This document shows, one piece after another, positions 2,755 through 53,170 of a DNA stretch of 64,000 bases. Made by a program: the position numbers and the translations under genes. Source of the stretch: Lentilactobacillus buchneri (GTDB taxonomy: Bacteria; Bacillota; Bacilli; Lactobacillales; Lactobacillaceae); assembly GCF_018314255.1 (NCBI RefSeq), contig NZ_CP073066.1, positions 1,240,001-1,304,000 on the forward strand, given 5' to 3'. Numbering within the stretch: the stretch's first letter is position 1; the number at the start of each line of letters is the position of its first letter. The notes beneath the pieces are model-generated. The model was not told the DNA's origin, did no database searches, and was given only the letters and a program-made list of their open reading frames with translations.

Positions 2755-4698
2755 TTAAACATCAAGATTTTCCACAAACGTTGCGTTATCTTCAATAAAC
2801 TCGCGTCGTGGTTCCACCTTGTCGCCCATTAACATCGAGAAGACCTTATCTGCTTCGGCCGCATCGGAGGATTCAACTCTCAACAGATGACGGTTTTCGG
2901 GATTCATTGTGGTGTCCCACAATTGTTCAGCATCCATTTCTCCTAAACCTTTGTATCGTTGAATCACGGGTTTTGGTGATGGCTGCAGGGTTCCTAAGAA
3001 TGCATTCAAATCATCATCGGAATCAATGTAACGTGACATCTTCCCTTGACGGACTTGATACAACGGTGGCTGGGCAACGTAGACAAAACCGGCATCAATT
3101 AATGGCCGCATGTAACGGTAAATCAACGTTAACAACAGCGTTTGAATATGGGCACCATCAACATCGGCATCGGTCATGATGATCAGCTTATGGTAATTAA
3201 TCTTTGATAAATCAAAGTCCTCACCAAACCCGGTTCCCATGGCAGTAAATAATGAACGAATTTCTTCGTTGGCTAAAATTCGGTCCATACTTGCTTTTTC
3301 AACGTTTAATATTTTTCCACGAATTGGCAGAATTGCCTGGGTCAGCCGTGATCGGCCCTGCTTAGCGGATCCGCCGGCTGAATCACCCTCGACGATAAAC
3401 AGTTCAGAAATTTTAGGATCCTTACTGGTGTTATCGGCTAACTTACCAGGCAGGTTGCTGATTTCCAAGCCACTCTTTTTCCGGGTAACTTCACGGGCAC
3501 GTTTAGCTGCTGAACGAGCTTTTGAGGCCAGCATCCCACGATCAACAATTTTTCTGGCCATCTTAGGATTTTCCATCAAGAACTTGGTGAAATGATCACT
3601 GAAAATGCGGTCAGTCACCGTTCGAGCATCTGAATTCCCCAGCTTGGTCTTCGTCTGGCCCTCAAACTGTGGGTCTGGATGCTTGATGCTGACAACAGCC
3701 GTCGTGCCTTCACGGACATCTTCACCGGAAAGGTTTGGTTCGTTGTCTTTTAACAGCTTGTTCTTACGGGCATAATCGTTAATGACGCGAGTCAAGGCTC
3801 GCTTAAAGCCTTCTTCGTGAGTCCCACCTTCATAGGTATGAATATTATTAGTGAAGGTCATTAATGTATTGTGATAATCGTTGGTATATTGAATCGCCAC
3901 TTCAACGGTAATTCCGTTCATGACACCTTCAACGTAAATTGGTTCATCCAACAAGGTTTCTTTACTGTTATCCAGGTATTCAACGTAATGTTTGATCCCG
4001 CCTTCGTACATAAAGTCTTGTTCAGTCGGCTTTTCCGGACGCAGGTCAAGAACAACAATCCGTAATCCCTTGTTCAAAAATGCCAACTCGCGTAGTCGGG
4101 CTGTTAAGACTTTAATATCATAAGTAGTGGTCTCCCGGAAGATATCAGGATCCGGCAGGAAATGAACCTTAGTACCATGGAGATCATCCGAAACTTCACG
4201 GACGACTTTCATCTTGGTCTTGACGTGACCACGACTGAAGTCCATGTAGTAAACTTTGCCGTCACGGGTAACTTCAACGTCCAGTTCAGAGGACAGGGCG
4301 TTAACAACTGAAGCACCCACACCATGCAGGCCACCAGAAACTTTGTATCCGCCGCCGCCAAATTTACCACCGGCATGAAGAATTGTGAAAACGGTTTCTA
4401 GGGCAGGCTTGCCCGTCTTCTTTTGAATATCAACCGGAATTCCACGACCGTCATCAGTAACGGTAATGCTGTTGTCTTTTTCAACGGTAACGGTAATTTT
4501 GGTGGCAAATCCAGCAAGCGCTTCATCAATCCCGTTATCAACGATTTCCCATACCAAATGATGAAGTCCTTGTGAACTGGTCGTTCCAATGTACATCCCG
4601 GGACGTTTTCGAACAGCTTCCAGTCCTTCAAGAACTTGAATTTGGCTGGCATCATATTCATGCGCTAATTCTTTTTTGGTTTCTTTTTCGTCGGCCAT
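2755..4698 (-). CDS. gyrB: DNA gyrase subunit B
   Basis: ATPase subunit of DNA gyrase. The GHKL ATP-binding fold opens the protein ([34 protein letters not shown]), followed by the transducer domain and the TOPRIM domain with [13 protein letters not shown] and the DADVDGAHI metal-binding motif; the C-terminal QRYKGLGEM motif is present. The 647 residues match the short GyrB form without the proteobacterial insertion. AAGGAG precedes the ATG by a normal distance. It lies between recF and gyrA on the same strand, as in most Firmicutes. Confidence 0.98.
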
Positions 4699-27249: not shown

Positions 27250-27525
27250 TCAACTGGATTTTCGAGAATAAAGTTTTCATTTTGGTCAAATGAAACGATT
27301 GTGGGAGTGGGACGCGAGGCGTTTTGATCCCAGAGTTTAAGTGAAGAAACGAGTTATTCCTGTTTTGGGAATGACCCGTTTCTTTGCTTAAATGGCCGGG
27401 ATCAGCCGATCAGCAAGTAGGCTCACAGGCCTTGACCTCACAACATCAAAAAATTAACTTTGACATTTCGTCAATTCGTTATATCATAAAACCAGCCAAG
27501 TAATTTGTGTCTAATTGAATAAAGT
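27250..27525. other. Intergenic region with a dispersed palindromic repeat
   Basis: 275 bases between the secreted protein and the TPP riboswitch, mostly occupied by the repeat at 27305-27411. The remainder is AT-rich and presumably holds the riboswitch promoter. Confidence 0.6.
27305..27411 (+). repeat. Dispersed palindromic repeat family 1, copy A
   Basis: About 107 bases beginning GAGTGGGACGCGAGGCGTTT and ending GGCCGGGATCAGCCGATC. It folds as a long hairpin (AAGTGAAGAAACGAG with CGTTTCTTTGCTT). An inverted second copy is at 34979-35084, about 88% identical by eye. Confidence 0.85.
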
Positions 27526-27600
27526 AGTCTGGGGTGCCCTAAACGGCTGAGATAAATACCCATTGAACCTGATGCAGTTAGGACTGTCGAAGGAAGAACG
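27526..27600 (+). ncRNA. TPP riboswitch (THI element)
   Basis: The conserved core is complete: GGGGTGCCC, CTGAGA, TACCC, GAACCTGATGCAGTTAG, CTGTCGAAGGAA. It precedes a terminator and the salvage operon, so thiamine pyrophosphate binding should cause early transcription stop. Confidence 0.95.
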
Positions 27601-27651
27601 AAATTTTTTTGTGTGAGCAAATAGATATAAAGTCGATTCAACTTTTAATCT

Positions 27652-32046: not shown

Positions 32047-32087
32047 TAAAAAATCCGCCCCAAATGTTTTCACATTAAGGACGGATC
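32047..32087 (-). terminator. Expression-platform terminator of the trp T-box
   Basis: Minus strand ATCCGTCC-TTAATGT pairs with ACATTTGGGGCGGAT, then TTTTTT. Confidence 0.85.
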
Positions 32088-32345
32088 ATTCCGCGGTGCC
32101 ACCTTTGTTTAATTGATCGAAAAAGACAGTCCACCATTCAGTAGAGTCACTCTTTTCCGTCAACTACGCTTAGCAAGGGACCAACATCCCTCCGACAACT
32201 GACGTATGCCAACACGTTTCTTCGTACTCGATCACTTTCGGAAGAACCCTCGGTGGTCCATTTAACTGCTTGCGTTCGGCCGCATTCTCAGCAATAGCGA
32301 CTCTCTTGACGTGCACAACAATCTTGATCTCCACTTCAATGGTTT
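32047..32345 (-). ncRNA. T-box leader of trpE-trpG (specifier TGG, tRNA-Trp)
   Basis: The T-box sequence AAGGTGGCACCGCGG is at 32105-32091 on the minus strand. The specifier loop has TGG at 32260-32258, followed by A and the Stem I arm CCAC. The antiterminator bulge reads TGGC, which pairs with the GCCA end of tRNA-Trp (discriminator G), unlike the TGGT of the other two T-boxes here. Uncharged tRNA-Trp should switch trpEG on. Confidence 0.95.
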
Positions 32346-32372
32346 ATTTAGGACGGTATTTAATTGCCATTA

Positions 32373-32427: not shown

Positions 32428-32456
32428 TTGACACATCTTGGAATTCATTATATGCT
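32428..32456 (+). promoter_or_regulatory. Promoter of the aroF-aroB leader transcript
   Basis: TTGACA (32428-32433), 17-bp spacer, TATGCT (32451-32456). The -35 boxes of this and the trp promoter are only 26 bases apart, back to back. Confidence 0.75.
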
Positions 32457-32496
32457 CTATGCAATTAAAATTTAACTTTCTTAGGAGATTCTAATC

Positions 32497-32550
32497 ATGA
32501 TAAAAATTAATTCAAAAATTAATCGATTTTATTACTATTGGTTCGTTTAG
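32497..32550 (+). CDS. Aromatic-rich leader peptide of the DAHP synthase operon
   Basis: A 17-codon ORF after TTAGGAGATT: MIKINSKINRFYYYWFV. Phe11, Tyr12, Tyr13, Tyr14, Trp15 and Phe16 form a run of six aromatic codons. Codons 13-15 (TAC TAT TGG, 32533-32541) are exactly complementary to CCAATAGTA at 32597-32605. The next gene makes DAHP, the first intermediate of all three aromatic amino acids. This is the pattern of classical ribosome-mediated attenuation (trpL/pheL type). Confidence 0.85.
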   Translation: MIKINSKINRFYYYWFV

Positions 32551-32663
32551 TGTTCACACCGGACAGGATGTGGGCACTCACTCACATCTTGTGCGGCCAA
32601 TAGTATTTCATCATGATTACTTACTTCGGTCACACAGTTATTTACCAAATATACTGCGGGACC
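32533..32663 (+). promoter_or_regulatory. Attenuator control stems of the aro leader
   Basis: Stem 1:2 is TACTATTGG (32533-32541) with CCAATAGTA (32597-32605), enclosing an inner hairpin CAGGATGTG (32564-32572) with CACATCTTG (32583-32591) plus CCG/CGG. A downstream segment ACTGCGGGA (32653-32661) is complementary to the 5' arm of the terminator (TCCCGTAGT, 32688-32696; one G-U), so it can act as antiterminator. A third fold, GGTC...CAGT...ATTT with AAAT...ACTG...GACC (32618-32663), could hide that segment. Confidence 0.75.
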
Positions 32664-32685
32664 AATTTTTTTACCCAAAATTCTG

Positions 32686-32728
32686 ACTCCCGTAGTGTTG
32701 TACACACTGTGGGAGTTTTATTTTATTC
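32686..32728 (+). terminator. Attenuator terminator before aroF
   Basis: ACTCCCGTAGTGT (32686-32698) pairs over 13 bp with ACACTGTGGGAGT (32704-32716), loop TGTAC, then TTTTATTTTATT. It lies 36 bases before the aroF start. Confidence 0.88.
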
Positions 32729-32763
32729 AAAAACACGTCAAACACAGAAATGGAGATAATATT

Positions 32764-33780
32764 ATGATTATTGTACTTAAAAACGGACACGAAGACATTA
32801 TTGACGAGATCAAGAGTCGCTTTACCGAAACCAACGAGGTATTTGTTCATAACAACCGCGTGGCAATCCAAGGCGTAAGTGAAGATGGCTTAAATGCTGA
32901 AGAAAAGAATGCCATTGACTTAATCATCGACAACGTTCCCGCCGCTGTTCAGGGGAGCCGCCTCTTTCACCCGGAAGACACCGTTGTTGTGACACCGCAC
33001 AGTCAAATTGGCGGCGATAACTTCACGATGATGGCAGGTCCTTGCTCAGTTGAGTCTGCGGAACATGTCATGAAGATGGCTAAAGTTGCCAAGAGTGGTG
33101 GGGCCACAATCCTTCGGGGCGGTGCTTTTAAACCTCGAACCTCCCCTTACTCATTCCAAGGTCTTGGCGAAGATGGTTTGAAATTTCTTAGAGCTGCCGC
33201 TGACGCTTACGACATGGACGTGTTAACTGAAGTCATGGATCAAGACCACGTGGCAATGGTTGAACAATACACGGATATTTTCCAAATTGGCGCCCGAAAC
33301 ATGCAGAACTTCTCACTTTTGAAGGCAGTCGGCAAGACTCAGACTCCAGTAATGCTAAAACGGGGAATGTCTGCTACGATTGATGATATCTTAAATGCAG
33401 CTGAGTACATCGCCGCTGGTGGCAACCATAACATCATCATTACTGAACGAGGGATTCGGACATTTGATAACAAATACACCCGCAACACCTTAGACGTTGG
33501 CGCAGTTCCAGTGCTTCAAAAACTGACTCACTACCCAGTCATCGTAGACCCAAGCCATGCCGCCGGCCACACAGAATTTGTGACTCCCGAGGCATTGGCC
33601 GGAGTTGCGGTTGGTGCCAGTGGTTTAGTTGTTGAAATTCATGATGATCCTGCTCATGCATTCTCAGACGGCGCCCAAGCACTTAAGCCAGATGAATACC
33701 GTGCGATGGCTCAGCAGGCATTTGCAATCCGGAAAGTGATCACGACCCCTGTCGAAGAAAAAAGTGAGGTTAAATTATGA
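32764..33780 (+). CDS. aroF: 3-deoxy-7-phosphoheptulonate (DAHP) synthase
   Basis: Condenses PEP and erythrose 4-phosphate in the first shikimate step. 338 residues: an N-terminal ferredoxin-like regulatory domain of about 70 residues (IIVLKNGHEDIIDEIKSRF) and the I-beta-type barrel with AGPCSVESAEHVM, RGGAFKPRTSPYSFQGLG, MLKRGMSATIDD, ITERGIRTFDN and DPSHAAGHTEFV. TGGAG precedes ATG 32764. aroB follows with a 4-base overlap. Transcription appears to be controlled by the aromatic leader-peptide attenuator upstream. The symbol is generic for this type (also aroA/aroG in other species). Confidence 0.95.
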   Translation: MIIVLKNGHEDIIDEIKSRFTETNEVFVHNNRVAIQGVSEDGLNAEEKNAIDLIIDNVPAAVQGSRLFHPEDTVVVTPHSQIGGDNFTMMAGPCSVESAEHVMKMAKVAKSGGATILRGGAFKPRTSPYSFQGLGEDGLKFLRAAADAYDMDVLTEVMDQDHVAMVEQYTDIFQIGARNMQNFSLLKAVGKTQTPVMLKRGMSATIDDILNAAEYIAAGGNHNIIITERGIRTFDNKYTRNTLDVGAVPVLQKLTHYPVIVDPSHAAGHTEFVTPEALAGVAVGASGLVVEIHDDPAHAFSDGAQALKPDEYRAMAQQAFAIRKVITTPVEEKSEVKL

Positions 33781-34859
33781 AAATCATTAAAGTTGATTTA
33801 CCAGATCGTTCATACAATGTCGAAATTGCCCGCGGAATCCTTGGGTGCACCGGTCAGTTGGTGTCCAGTGTTTGGAGCAAGCGCAAAATTGCCCTGGTGA
33901 GTGACAGCAACGTTGCGCCCCTTTACCAGGCCCAAGTCGCTGAGGCTCTAGAAGCTGTTGGCTTCACTGTTCACGAGTACCAATTTCCCGCTGGTGAAGA
34001 ATCAAAATCCGTAGACGTTTTAGCTGACCTTGCCCGGCAAATGGCCGCTGACAGTTTCAACCGCGATGATGGTGTCATTGCCTTGGGTGGCGGTGTGACC
34101 GGTGACCTAGCCGGTTTTCTGGCAGCGACATACATGCGTGGCATCAGCCTGATTCAGATGCCAACCTCGTTGTTGGCCCAGGTTGACAGTTCAGTCGGCG
34201 GTAAAACGGCTGTTGACTTGGATACCACCAAGAACATCATCGGCTCATTTTACCAACCGGATTTGGTAATTATCGATCCGGACACTTTGAAAACCTTAAA
34301 AACTCGCGACTTGGTTGAGGGGTACGGTGAAATTGTCAAAGTGGCGGCGTTATCCGATGGTGATTTGTGGAACTTAGTCAAATCAATCAACTCACCTGAA
34401 GACATTTTGGCCAACGCTGAAGAATTGAGTATTCATTCGATTCAATACAAAGCAGACATTGTCATGGGTGATGAAAAAGAGGGTGGCGGCCTCCGCCAAT
34501 TGCTTAATTACGGTCATACAATTGGGCATGCTGTTGAAGCGCTCTCTGACGGTGGCCTTCGCCACGGGGAAGCCGTCAGCATTGGCATGATTGCCATGCA
34601 GCAGATTTTTGAAGACAAGGGCTTGGCCTTGACCGGCATCACTCAAGAACTCCGGGAACGTTTAGAAGCGGTTGGATTGCCGGTTACTTCAGATTTATTG
34701 GATTCTGACCAAGTATTTGAAAAGATTAAGAATGACAAGAAGAATCGTGACGGTCATTTAAGTTTGATCTACATTCACACAATTGGTGGACCGGTTATCA
34801 AATCAATTCCGAGTGACCAAGTCAAAGATTTCTTGGCAATTAAGACTGTTAAAGCATAA
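33777..34859 (+). CDS. aroB: 3-dehydroquinate synthase
   Basis: Second shikimate enzyme, NAD+ and metal dependent, turning DAHP into 3-dehydroquinate. 360 residues; key stretches are YQFPAGEESKSVDV, ALGGGVTGDLAGFLAATYMRG, MPTSLLAQVDSSVGGKTAVD, NIIGSFYQP, GYGEIVKVAAL and the metal-binding RQLLNYGHTIGHAVE and LRHGEAVSIGM. It overlaps aroF by 4 bases (ATGA). The operon ends with a parS-like site directly at its stop and a dispersed repeat. Confidence 0.97.
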   Translation: MKIIKVDLPDRSYNVEIARGILGCTGQLVSSVWSKRKIALVSDSNVAPLYQAQVAEALEAVGFTVHEYQFPAGEESKSVDVLADLARQMAADSFNRDDGVIALGGGVTGDLAGFLAATYMRGISLIQMPTSLLAQVDSSVGGKTAVDLDTTKNIIGSFYQPDLVIIDPDTLKTLKTRDLVEGYGEIVKVAALSDGDLWNLVKSINSPEDILANAEELSIHSIQYKADIVMGDEKEGGGLRQLLNYGHTIGHAVEALSDGGLRHGEAVSIGMIAMQQIFEDKGLALTGITQELRERLEAVGLPVTSDLLDSDQVFEKIKNDKKNRDGHLSLIYIHTIGGPVIKSIPSDQVKDFLAIKTVKA

Positions 34860-35158: not shown

Positions 35159-35941
35159 ATGGCTAAGCCACGTCCACGTGAACAAACCTATGAATTTACT
35201 GATAAACCCTCCTACCGTGAATGGCTGATTGAGACTGTTCGAGCGGCGCTGCCCGATGGCTTGGAACTGGCCGCCAGCAATTATGCCCGCTCCACGGCCA
35301 GTTCATACTGGCTGATTAAGGGGTATGACGATCATGATCAAGTTTTCTGGCTGACACTTCGGATTGCCACTCATCGGCTTTGGCTGCAGAACGCCCACCA
35401 AATTGAGGTATTGTGGGAAGAGCCGGGGACCTTTGGTGATTTATTTAATGCGGTGTCCAACAGTCTTCACCCAGTGGCGGTCCAAAACGCAAAATTTACT
35501 TTGAGTTCGCTGGACATTGCTGTGTTGAACTTGCTGATCGCTCTTGAACACCACAAATTGATTTGGTTCATTAGAATGGTTCCAGACATCGCCAAGGCAC
35601 ACAAAGATAAGTTGTTCGATTTAAAGAGCGACTTCCTCGATTGCCAACTATTGCTGGGCGACCGGAACAATGCGAATAATCTGTTACTACCAGTTGATGT
35701 CCCAGCGTTTCAGCATCAATTAGCGACATATTTTGGCGAAAATCTCTTATTCTCACAATTTACCAAACATTCATTGCTTAAACTCTTACCCACCAACCAA
35801 TGGATCCAGCCAATGCTTGATGAGCAGGGAAATGATGGTGAATGGGAAGATGAGGTTAGAACCGCGTATGGGCAGGACTTTGTCGAATTATGTCAGCGTG
35901 AGTTGAAGCATCAAGCAAGAATATATAAGAAAACCACCTAG
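35159..35941 (+). CDS. Conserved-looking cytoplasmic protein of unknown function
   Basis: 260 residues, no signal peptide or transmembrane segment. It is rich in Trp and aromatic residues (SSYWLIKGYDDHDQVFWLTLRI, HRLWLQNAH) in the N-terminal half, with a more helical, Leu-rich C-terminal half (NLLIALEHHKLIWFIRM, HSLLKLLPTNQW). An AAAGGAGGG precedes the ATG at a suitable distance. It is expressed alone, convergent with the atypical response regulator. I do not recognise a family and give no function. Confidence 0.8.
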   Translation: MAKPRPREQTYEFTDKPSYREWLIETVRAALPDGLELAASNYARSTASSYWLIKGYDDHDQVFWLTLRIATHRLWLQNAHQIEVLWEEPGTFGDLFNAVSNSLHPVAVQNAKFTLSSLDIAVLNLLIALEHHKLIWFIRMVPDIAKAHKDKLFDLKSDFLDCQLLLGDRNNANNLLLPVDVPAFQHQLATYFGENLLFSQFTKHSLLKLLPTNQWIQPMLDEQGNDGEWEDEVRTAYGQDFVELCQRELKHQARIYKKTT

Positions 35942-52879: not shown

Positions 52880-53170
52880 AGAAACATTAGAATTTGCTAA
52901 GACAAGGAGAGTAGTCTCTTAGAACTTTTTCAGGGAGAATCGGGTAAGTGAGAACGATTCAAAAGCCTAAGCGATGAAAGTAGCCTTCGAGCGACAAATG
53001 CGAGCGAGTCTGCGAGTGTTTGTTGGGAGCGCCCATTACAGCGCCAGTGTATCGCTGAATTCGTTCGGCCGTACATGGTGAGTCGATAGTTGTGAAGCTG
53101 TCGAGAATTTGGGTGGTAACACGTGCAAACGTCCCTTAAGATCGTATCGATCTTAAGGGACGTTTTTTAT
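52880..53170 (+). ncRNA. T-box leader of brnQ (specifier GTA, probable tRNA-Val)
   Basis: Stem I opens AAGG-AGAGTAG and carries CAGGGAGAATCGGG; the specifier loop reads GAAAGTAGCC with GTA at 52980-52982. The T-box sequence GGGTGGTAACACG is at 53111-53123 and its TGGT bulge fits tRNA-Val. The terminator at 53129-53168 completes it. A Val T-box before a branched-chain amino acid transporter is physiologically sensible. Confidence 0.93.
53129..53168 (+). terminator. Expression-platform terminator of the brnQ T-box
   Basis: ACGTCCCTTAAGATC pairs perfectly with GATCTTAAGGGACGT around GTATC, then T6. Confidence 0.92.

Follow-up and report, generated by a model that had tools for sequence, protein, structure and literature searches.

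In the enterobacterial trp and his attenuators, leader codons are paired in an ordered chain of mutually exclusive helices, and each leader senses a single amino acid. Aromatic leaders have also been reported before DAHP synthase genes. In the parts of the sources available, aroR of C. glutamicum is a Phe-Tyr-Phe leader located before the DAHP synthase gene, which is ribosome-mediated and is reported to answer Phe, not Tyr (PMC11802643, PMC7356990). The uORFC-13-1 family of Acholeplasma and environmental sequences consists of a uORF with Phe codon(s) and a terminator before aroF; the available text describes at least one Phe codon and one further helix, and the paper notes that similar attenuation has been hypothesised for E. 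coli aroF (PMC8632094). As far as the accessible text goes, attenuation in Gram-positive Firmicutes is also represented by the S. aureus ilv attenuator peptide, by predicted BCAA leaders in Lactococcus and Streptococcus (PMC5794164) and by hisS/hisZ leaders in bacilli (PMC2965389), all of which belong to different pathways and amino acids. A further partly available paper covers the LEU pseudoknot and leaders of actinobacteria (PMC1262725), and aroF or DAHP is absent from the main text of a T-box survey, in the portion available (PMC2494555). Among the papers listed in full-text searches we recognised no account of the leader described here in Lactobacillaceae or Clostridia; the subscription literature is mostly outside this coverage, and a prior description is possible.

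We analysed a 64,000-nucleotide stretch of the Lentilactobacillus buchneri genome (the window). An initial annotation had placed a promoter, a 17-codon ORF with its own Shine-Dalgarno sequence and six aromatic codons, paired segments and a terminator before aroF, and all of them were located at the positions it gave. The elements upstream and the genes are as follows.

32428..32456, + strand: sigma-70-type promoter, TTGACA-17-TATGCT (TTGACA 32428-32433, TATGCT 32451-32456, spacer 17), 10 of 12 consensus matches
32483..32487, + strand: Shine-Dalgarno AGGAG of the leader ORF (sequence and own-genus rows)
32497..32550, + strand: leader ORF MIKINSKINRFYYYWFV, 17 codons, stop UAG (sequence and own-genus comparison)
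32527..32544, + strand: regulatory codons 11-16, F11 Y12 Y13 Y14 W15 F16 (TTT TAT TAC TAT TGG TTC)
32764..33780, + strand: aroF, DAHP synthase of 338 aa (NF006421 and TIGR01361 above cut-off)
33777..34859, + strand: aroB, 3-dehydroquinate synthase (TIGR01357 above cut-off)

The aroF product is 96% identical to the L. otakiensis DAHP synthase, the closest named protein among the matches listed. A 260-aa ORF 3' of aroB (window 35159-35941) has no NCBIfam match. The stretch 32460-32763 was predicted to fold at -78.2 kcal/mol, whereas its shuffles averaged -52.2 (z -5.5; 0 of 100 shuffles). Judging from the sequence and its relatives, we consider that this region is probably a ribosome-mediated transcription attenuator (probability about 0.86), which would tune the expression of aroF and aroB to how much charged tRNA-Tyr, tRNA-Phe and tRNA-Trp is available. 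The initial annotation had proposed this architecture, and it was supported by the ORF, the aromatic run, the exclusive helices and the conservation of the terminator. That Phe, Tyr and Trp would all be sensed is read from the codons only.

The leader was compared across 24 genomes of the own genus, 20 of which contain the DAHP synthase gene, and the leader region was present in all 20. The Shine-Dalgarno sequence and start codon were seen in 19 of them, and in the remaining one (G020) a contig edge falls within the leader. AGGAG was found in 18 of the 20 rows and AGGGG in G005, the row of G020 being cut. TTGACA was kept in all 19 upstream regions that are long enough; the twentieth is cut at a contig edge. 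The stretch CAATTAAAATTTAACTT, at window 32462-32478 and 5' of the leader Shine-Dalgarno sequence, is strongly conserved across the genus.

The ORF length shifts within the genus are multiples of three (+9 in G014, -3 in G021) and keep the frame. The aromatic run takes the forms FYYYWF, FYYYWY, FYFYWY, FSYYWS, FSYYWP, FYYYWP, YYYYWF, SYYFWP, AYYFWS and QYYYWS, and the motif [YF][YF]W occurs in 20 of 20 leaders. In G016 and G020, the change of codon 14 from UAU to UAC goes with an A-to-G change in segment 2, and in G007 the change of codon 13 from Tyr to Phe costs one base pair. The run variants, the in-frame length shifts and the tracking of codon 14 by segment 2 together show that codons and pairing are both conserved. 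Stems retained after loss of the ORF or its aromatic codons, the pattern named beforehand as contradicting attenuation, were not seen among the own-genus leaders: 20 of 20 genomes combine the run and the stems with the ORF, or with as much of it as can be read.

The segments that may pair in the transcript are as follows.

32492..32501, + strand: start-codon region, pairs with 32610-32619 (pairing in 88.1% of cells, two-sided changes at 4 pairs)
32533..32541, + strand: segment 1 (codons 13-15), TACTATTGG, perfect complement of CCAATAGTA at 32597-32605
32549..32560, + strand: segment A, overlaps and follows the stop codon; predicted -15.6 kcal/mol hairpin with 32566-32578
32560..32572, + strand: 5' strand of hairpin B (pairing in 97.7% of cells, two-sided changes at 4 pairs)
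32566..32578, + strand: segment S, pairs with A and has a 7-nt overlap with the 5' strand of hairpin B (folding and comparison)
32583..32595, + strand: 3' strand of hairpin B (B'), overlaps segment 2 (own-genus alignment)
32590..32598, + strand: part of segment 2 for segment 3, UGUGCGGCC (99.4% of cells paired, no two-sided change)
32597..32605, + strand: part of segment 2 for segment 1, CCAATAGTA (own-genus pairing; full segment 2 is 32590-32605)
32610..32619, + strand: partner of the start-codon region (fixed-column alignment)
32628..32638, + strand: segment 3, GGUCACACAGU; 32628-32636 pairs with 32590-32598
32653..32663, + strand: segment 4, ACUGCGGGACC, antiterminator strand, hidden if paired with segment 3 (own-genus pairing)
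32686..32698, + strand: segment 5, terminator 5' arm, ACTCCCGTAGTGT (sequence and own-genus pairing)
32704..32728, + strand: segment 6 (terminator 3' arm 32704-32716, ACACTGTGGGAGT) and T-rich tract (sequence)

The 9-bp perfect complement between codons 13-15 and 32597-32605, reported before, was confirmed. So was the complementarity of 32653-32661 to the 5' arm of the terminator, where ACTGCGGGA pairs with TCCCGTAGT through 9 pairs including one G-U. The terminator itself forms 13 pairs between 32686-32698 and 32704-32716, followed by TTTATTTTATT. A third fold, which had been thought able to hide the antiterminator, corresponds to the 3:4 helix and is one step of an ordered chain. The 2:3 partner, the A:S hairpin, hairpin B and the pairing of the start region with 32610-32619 were not mentioned in the initial annotation. 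With the newly found 2:3 partner, the segments are predicted to form the chain 1:2/3:4/5:6 (off) versus 2:3/4:5 (on). Within the own genus the helices 1:2, 2:3, 3:4, 4:5 and 5:6 overlap, so they are incompatible as a full set. The antiterminator is exclusive with both the terminator and the helix upstream in the own genus, and weakly so in single leaders of other genera.

Covariation was then quantified in the 20 own-genus sequences. The compensatory changes that had been proposed as a check on the stems were present. On alignment A1, the OFF set had 94.3% of 1020 cells paired and two-sided changes at 17 of 52 pairs; no shuffle of 500 was as high on percentage or on two-sided change, 84 of 500 were for pair types, and slid structures reached 28.9-48.8%. 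The ON set had 98.8% of 339 cells paired and two-sided changes at 3 pairs, all in 4:5 (98.3% paired over fixed columns); 9 of 500 shuffles reached the two-sided count, 0 of 500 the percentage and 342 of 500 the pair types, with slid controls at 32.0-52.7%. The paired percentages are biased upward, as the structures were partly drawn from the same sequences, and the two-sided changes are the better evidence. In the 3:4 helix, 100% of cells were paired and 7 of 9 pairs were invariant. In 2:3, six of eight pairs were invariant, one varied on one side and none on both, so its own-genus support is conservation more than covariation. The start-region helix is broken in G001 (by eye). Counted per sequence, 7-9 of 9 pairs were present for 1:2, 8 of 9 in 19 sequences and 7 of 9 in one for 2:3, 9-10 of 11 for 3:4 and 10-12 of 12 for hairpin B. 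The corresponding counts for 4:5 (9 of 9 in 17 sequences, 8 of 9 in three) and 5:6 (7-9 of 9) use best-match partners, which biases them toward pairing, and are separate from the fixed-column counts.

The hairpin A:S, 3' of the stop codon and overlapping hairpin B, was newly identified in this analysis. The early transcript 32547-32590 folds as a 12-pair A:S hairpin at -15.6 kcal/mol, and once B' is added hairpin B wins at -24.4 kcal/mol. On A1 the 12-pair form was paired in 90.4% of 240 cells; 0 of 500 shuffles were as high on percentage and covariation score, while 170 of 500 reached its two-sided pair count and 121 of 500 its pair types. A short six-pair form was paired in 99.2%, with a weak shuffle control (21-226 of 500 by measure). 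Outside the genus, structures were studied in a sample of 34 of 67 leaders from 16 genera. A stop-codon helix matched by at most 25 of 500 shuffles was found in 20 of the 34, from 10 genera and with differing letters; the other 14 failed this test, two of them having no helix at all. Among the 20 passing leaders, S overlapped the 5' strand of B in 16 (by at least 3 bases in 12), and the two were without overlap in L154, L188, L204 and L209. A:S and B are therefore likely to be mutually exclusive in most leaders. Pairing of A with the B loop in a pseudoknot was considered as well and set aside in favour of the alternatives, as S overlaps B in 16 of 20; the case for doing so is weakest in the four leaders without overlap.

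These elements suggest the following course of events. With ample aromatic amino acids, the ribosome would reach the stop codon and cover segment A, and hairpin B would form. After the ribosome leaves, 1:2 with B, 3:4 and 5:6 would form, and transcription would stop before aroF. A leader that is not translated would take the same OFF fold. When charged aromatic tRNA runs low, the ribosome would stall in the run and mask segment 1 while A stays free. A:S would then form first, B would be delayed and segment 2 would pair with 3. Segment 4 would thus be freed to pair with terminator arm 5, and RNA polymerase would read on. Instead, or in addition, A:S may act as an RNA polymerase pause until the ribosome arrives. 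Should the start region pair with 32610-32619, a second ribosome would be kept out and the leader limited to one round. The effect of a stall at Trp is the least certain, since a ribosome there would partly cover A.

Equilibrium folding with ribosome masks was used to examine this scheme. The finished transcript was OFF in all 8 unforced ribosome states, and at transcript end 32700 the probability of 4:5 was 1.00 in all 8 states, a step without discrimination. Masked equilibrium folding as proof of the switch thus failed. With A:S held, a ribosome on Y13 and the RBS occupied, 2:3 reached 1.00 at ends 32645 and 32700; in the finished transcript it was 0.43, with 5:6 at 0.68. With the RBS free under the same conditions, 2:3 was 0.29 (32645), 0.30 (32700) and 0.00 (finished). 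Without a ribosome, or with a ribosome at the stop codon, 2:3 was 0.00-0.02. At transcript end 32672, 3:4 won in every case (at least 0.95). Since the equilibrium was always off, the ON state would have to be kinetic and hinge on the order of events. In other attenuators, too, the ON state is set by this order.

The distribution of the leader in the family was searched with a covariance model, R1, built from the 20 own-genus cores; the YYW codons make up its first nine columns, which biases the matches toward those codons. R1 matched 55 of 397 Lactobacillaceae genomes in 10 of 40 genera, and in the own genome this leader was the sole copy listed. Its matches also include L004 (Secundilactobacillus hailunensis), L005 (S. 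paracollinoides) and L009 (Ligilactobacillus ruminis), among 13 sources. DAHP synthase was detected at E up to 1e-60 in 148 of the 397 genomes, 54 of which had an R1 match, compared with just 1 of the 249 genomes without it. All 35 R1 matches outside the genus had an in-frame aromatic ORF, so that here too stems without aromatic codons were not seen; the Shine-Dalgarno sequence was clear in 34 and was AGAAG alone in L186. Of these matches 34 lay 5' of aroF-aroB, aroE-aroF-aroB or tkt-aroE-aroF-aroB. The remaining one (L155, G078) carries the leader MTKSTRYYYYWFI before aroC, in the genome without a DAHP synthase match.

We scanned 60 of the 94 genomes that have DAHP synthase and no R1 match, and 31 of them carried an aromatic leader, 29 before tkt, aroE or aroF and 2 tentatively before aroC (g4). 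About nine stray similar ORFs occurred per ~280 kb, a chance rate of about one per 60 windows of 450 nt. No leader was counted by the scan in the other 29 genomes, of which L207 and L218 begin at a contig edge beside the operon and L203 has a T-box-like motif. In total, leaders were found in 85 of 114 examined genomes with DAHP synthase, from 17 of 24 genera (16 without g4); the scan counted none in genera g8, g10, g14, g18, g19, g25 and g34. In L203 (G056, g34) an ORF at 4341 passes the scan but follows the T-box-like motif at 4239 and was left uncounted; a T-box may control the DAHP synthase gene there in place of an aromatic leader. L201 (G072) has two similar RYYWFS leaders, one before aroE and one before transketolase. 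In Ligilactobacillus ruminis (L009/L191), an RFYYYW-type leader precedes transketolase-aroF-aroB, and the attenuator would then also set the supply of erythrose-4-phosphate. In Secundilactobacillus collinoides (L003), the contig with the leader-controlled DAHP synthase gene carries another one some 11 kb away, with no model match beside it.

In the 34 sampled leaders outside the genus, a terminator of fixed score was present within 250 nt past the leader stop in 32 (0.00 expected), L153 and L201a failing; a best terminator, taken with no cut-off or control, was found in all 34. The codon run was complementary to a downstream segment in 27 of 34 at no more than 10 of 200 shuffles. By the same threshold 4:5 passed in 8 of 34, a count that rose to 13 of 34 when the region was narrowed, and 2:3 beat the shuffles in 9 of 34. 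Outside the genus, 1:2 and the terminator thus appear well supported, and the middle of the chain less so in individual leaders.

Across 87 leaders, of which those from other genera were partly selected by the aromatic run, at least two Tyr were found in 87, Trp in 83 and Phe within the best 6-residue window in 85; the four leaders without Trp are three in g6 and one in g4. The 87 leaders encode 78 distinct peptides, and the aromatic run persists while the RNA sequence changes. This bears on the possibility that the RNA senses a metabolite or tRNA directly, like a riboswitch or T-box, and that the short ORF is incidental. Much of the signal does lie outside the ORF, with the long invariant stretches GGYCACACAGU and CUGYGGGRCC and a compact fold past the stop. 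However, the invariant bases each serve two alternative helices, and the aroF strand had no T-box or other match in Rfam up to E=1. At the leaders scanned, those of the 20 loci among them, nothing reached the gathering score of Rfam 15. Together with the persistence of the run, this makes direct sensing improbable, and an assignment of the aroF leader to T-boxes or riboswitches was rejected on the missing Rfam matches at the leaders scanned.

The codons could also matter through the peptide, with stalling caused by the nascent aromatic chain or by a free amino acid rather than by tRNA shortage. TnaC is an example of such an arrest peptide. In 19 of 20 own-genus leaders two residues separate the last Trp from the stop, as would suit it, but over 83 leaders with Trp this distance ranges from 0 to 7 residues and the flanks vary, so we regard an arrest peptide as very improbable. 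Nine of the leader peptides had no match to NCBIfam families at E up to 1. Equally slight is the chance that the leader affects only aroF translation or RNA stability and that the hairpin is an ordinary terminator or stability element: for C. glutamicum AroR, one paper speaks of translational control and a review of enhanced transcription, as far as their available text goes, but here a competing upstream segment matches the terminator arm in 20 of 20 own-genus leaders (8 or 9 of 9 pairs, best-match partner), 47 nt separate the end of the terminator from the aroF start, and the Shine-Dalgarno sequence of aroF is outside every helix counted.

Leaders of this kind were also sought beyond the family at 80 DAHP synthase loci, 5 of which were dropped, leaving 75 with enough upstream sequence. 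A Shine-Dalgarno-preceded ORF in which 4 or more residues in 6 are aromatic was found between -600 and -60 at 20 of the 75 loci (mean 1.2 and maximum 5 loci in 40 shuffling rounds), and one with at least 5 in 6 at 14 loci (shuffle mean 0.075). Two of the 20 are Lentilactobacillus; the other 18 and Carnobacterium L077, whose leader precedes an ORF that precedes DAHP synthase, make 19 leaders outside Lactobacillaceae. A terminator lay before the gene in 16 of the 19 (0.1 expected) and was not found between leader and gene in L011, L045 and L062. Sixteen of the 19 are from Clostridia, 14 of them with a terminator, and the others from an Acholeplasmataceae MAG, Carnobacterium and a planctomycete MAG. 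The 14 Clostridia leaders with a terminator are of the Tyr/Phe type (L010, L012, L016, L027, L028, L030, L032, L046, L053, L066, L072, L074, L075 and L078), and AEYxYF recurs in five of them. By eye, Trp is present in 2 of the 19. In the planctomycete MAG (L034:2533-2640), an aromatic leader ORF (FFYYCW) and a terminator precede DAHP synthase.

On this basis a broader reading can be proposed tentatively, at somewhat less than even odds. Throughout the family, the leader may be an attenuator in which the supply of Tyr, Phe and Trp is pooled and the ribosome position is read twice, at segment 1 and at segment A past the stop, so that stalled, finished and never-translated leaders would fold differently, with a start codon that closes itself after one round. 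Together with the leaders of Clostridia, it would represent a common, largely unannotated Firmicutes rule for shikimate entry. For the position to be read twice, A:S must form to stop hairpin B from locking segment 2; the four of 20 leaders where A:S and B do not overlap slightly lower the weight of this twice-read, self-closing proposal.

A second RNA element lies divergently, back to back with the aroF leader.

32074..32348, - strand: T-box (RF00230) before trpE-trpG, 83.3 bits, below the 93-bit gathering score

Its specifier would be UGG, judged by eye from the usual position. T-boxes are common in this genome, with 41 matches at E up to 0.001. A TPP riboswitch (window 27520-27612) and a further T-box (52890-53139) were both above the gathering score. 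The back-to-back arrangement makes two RNA sensors of overlapping amino acids comparable at one locus. The locus also lends itself to testing how three amino acids are pooled by one leader and in what way a post-stop hairpin shapes the decision.

In conclusion, our results indicate that 16 genera of the lactobacillus family (17 if the tentative one is counted), in which T-boxes are the familiar device, control entry into the shikimate pathway by leader-peptide attenuation of the classical kind. They also point to aromatic leaders among Clostridia that are as yet unannotated. A ribosome-based switch of this kind is best known from other bacteria, and precedents exist. The design had been called distinct at first, which holds only in part, as C. 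glutamicum aroR and Acholeplasma uORFC-13-1, in the available descriptions, are already aromatic leaders before DAHP synthase. By these partial descriptions, aroR resembles the aroF leader but is actinobacterial with no Trp codon named, and uORFC-13-1, unlike this leader, has no Trp run named. The T-box shares the control of amino-acid genes in the same genome, whereas there the tRNA is sensed by the RNA with no leader ORF. We know of no hairpin in the trp and his attenuators that pairs just past the stop and shares bases with the lock on segment 2. For segments 1-6, the nearest match is the A-F order of the enterobacterial his leader.
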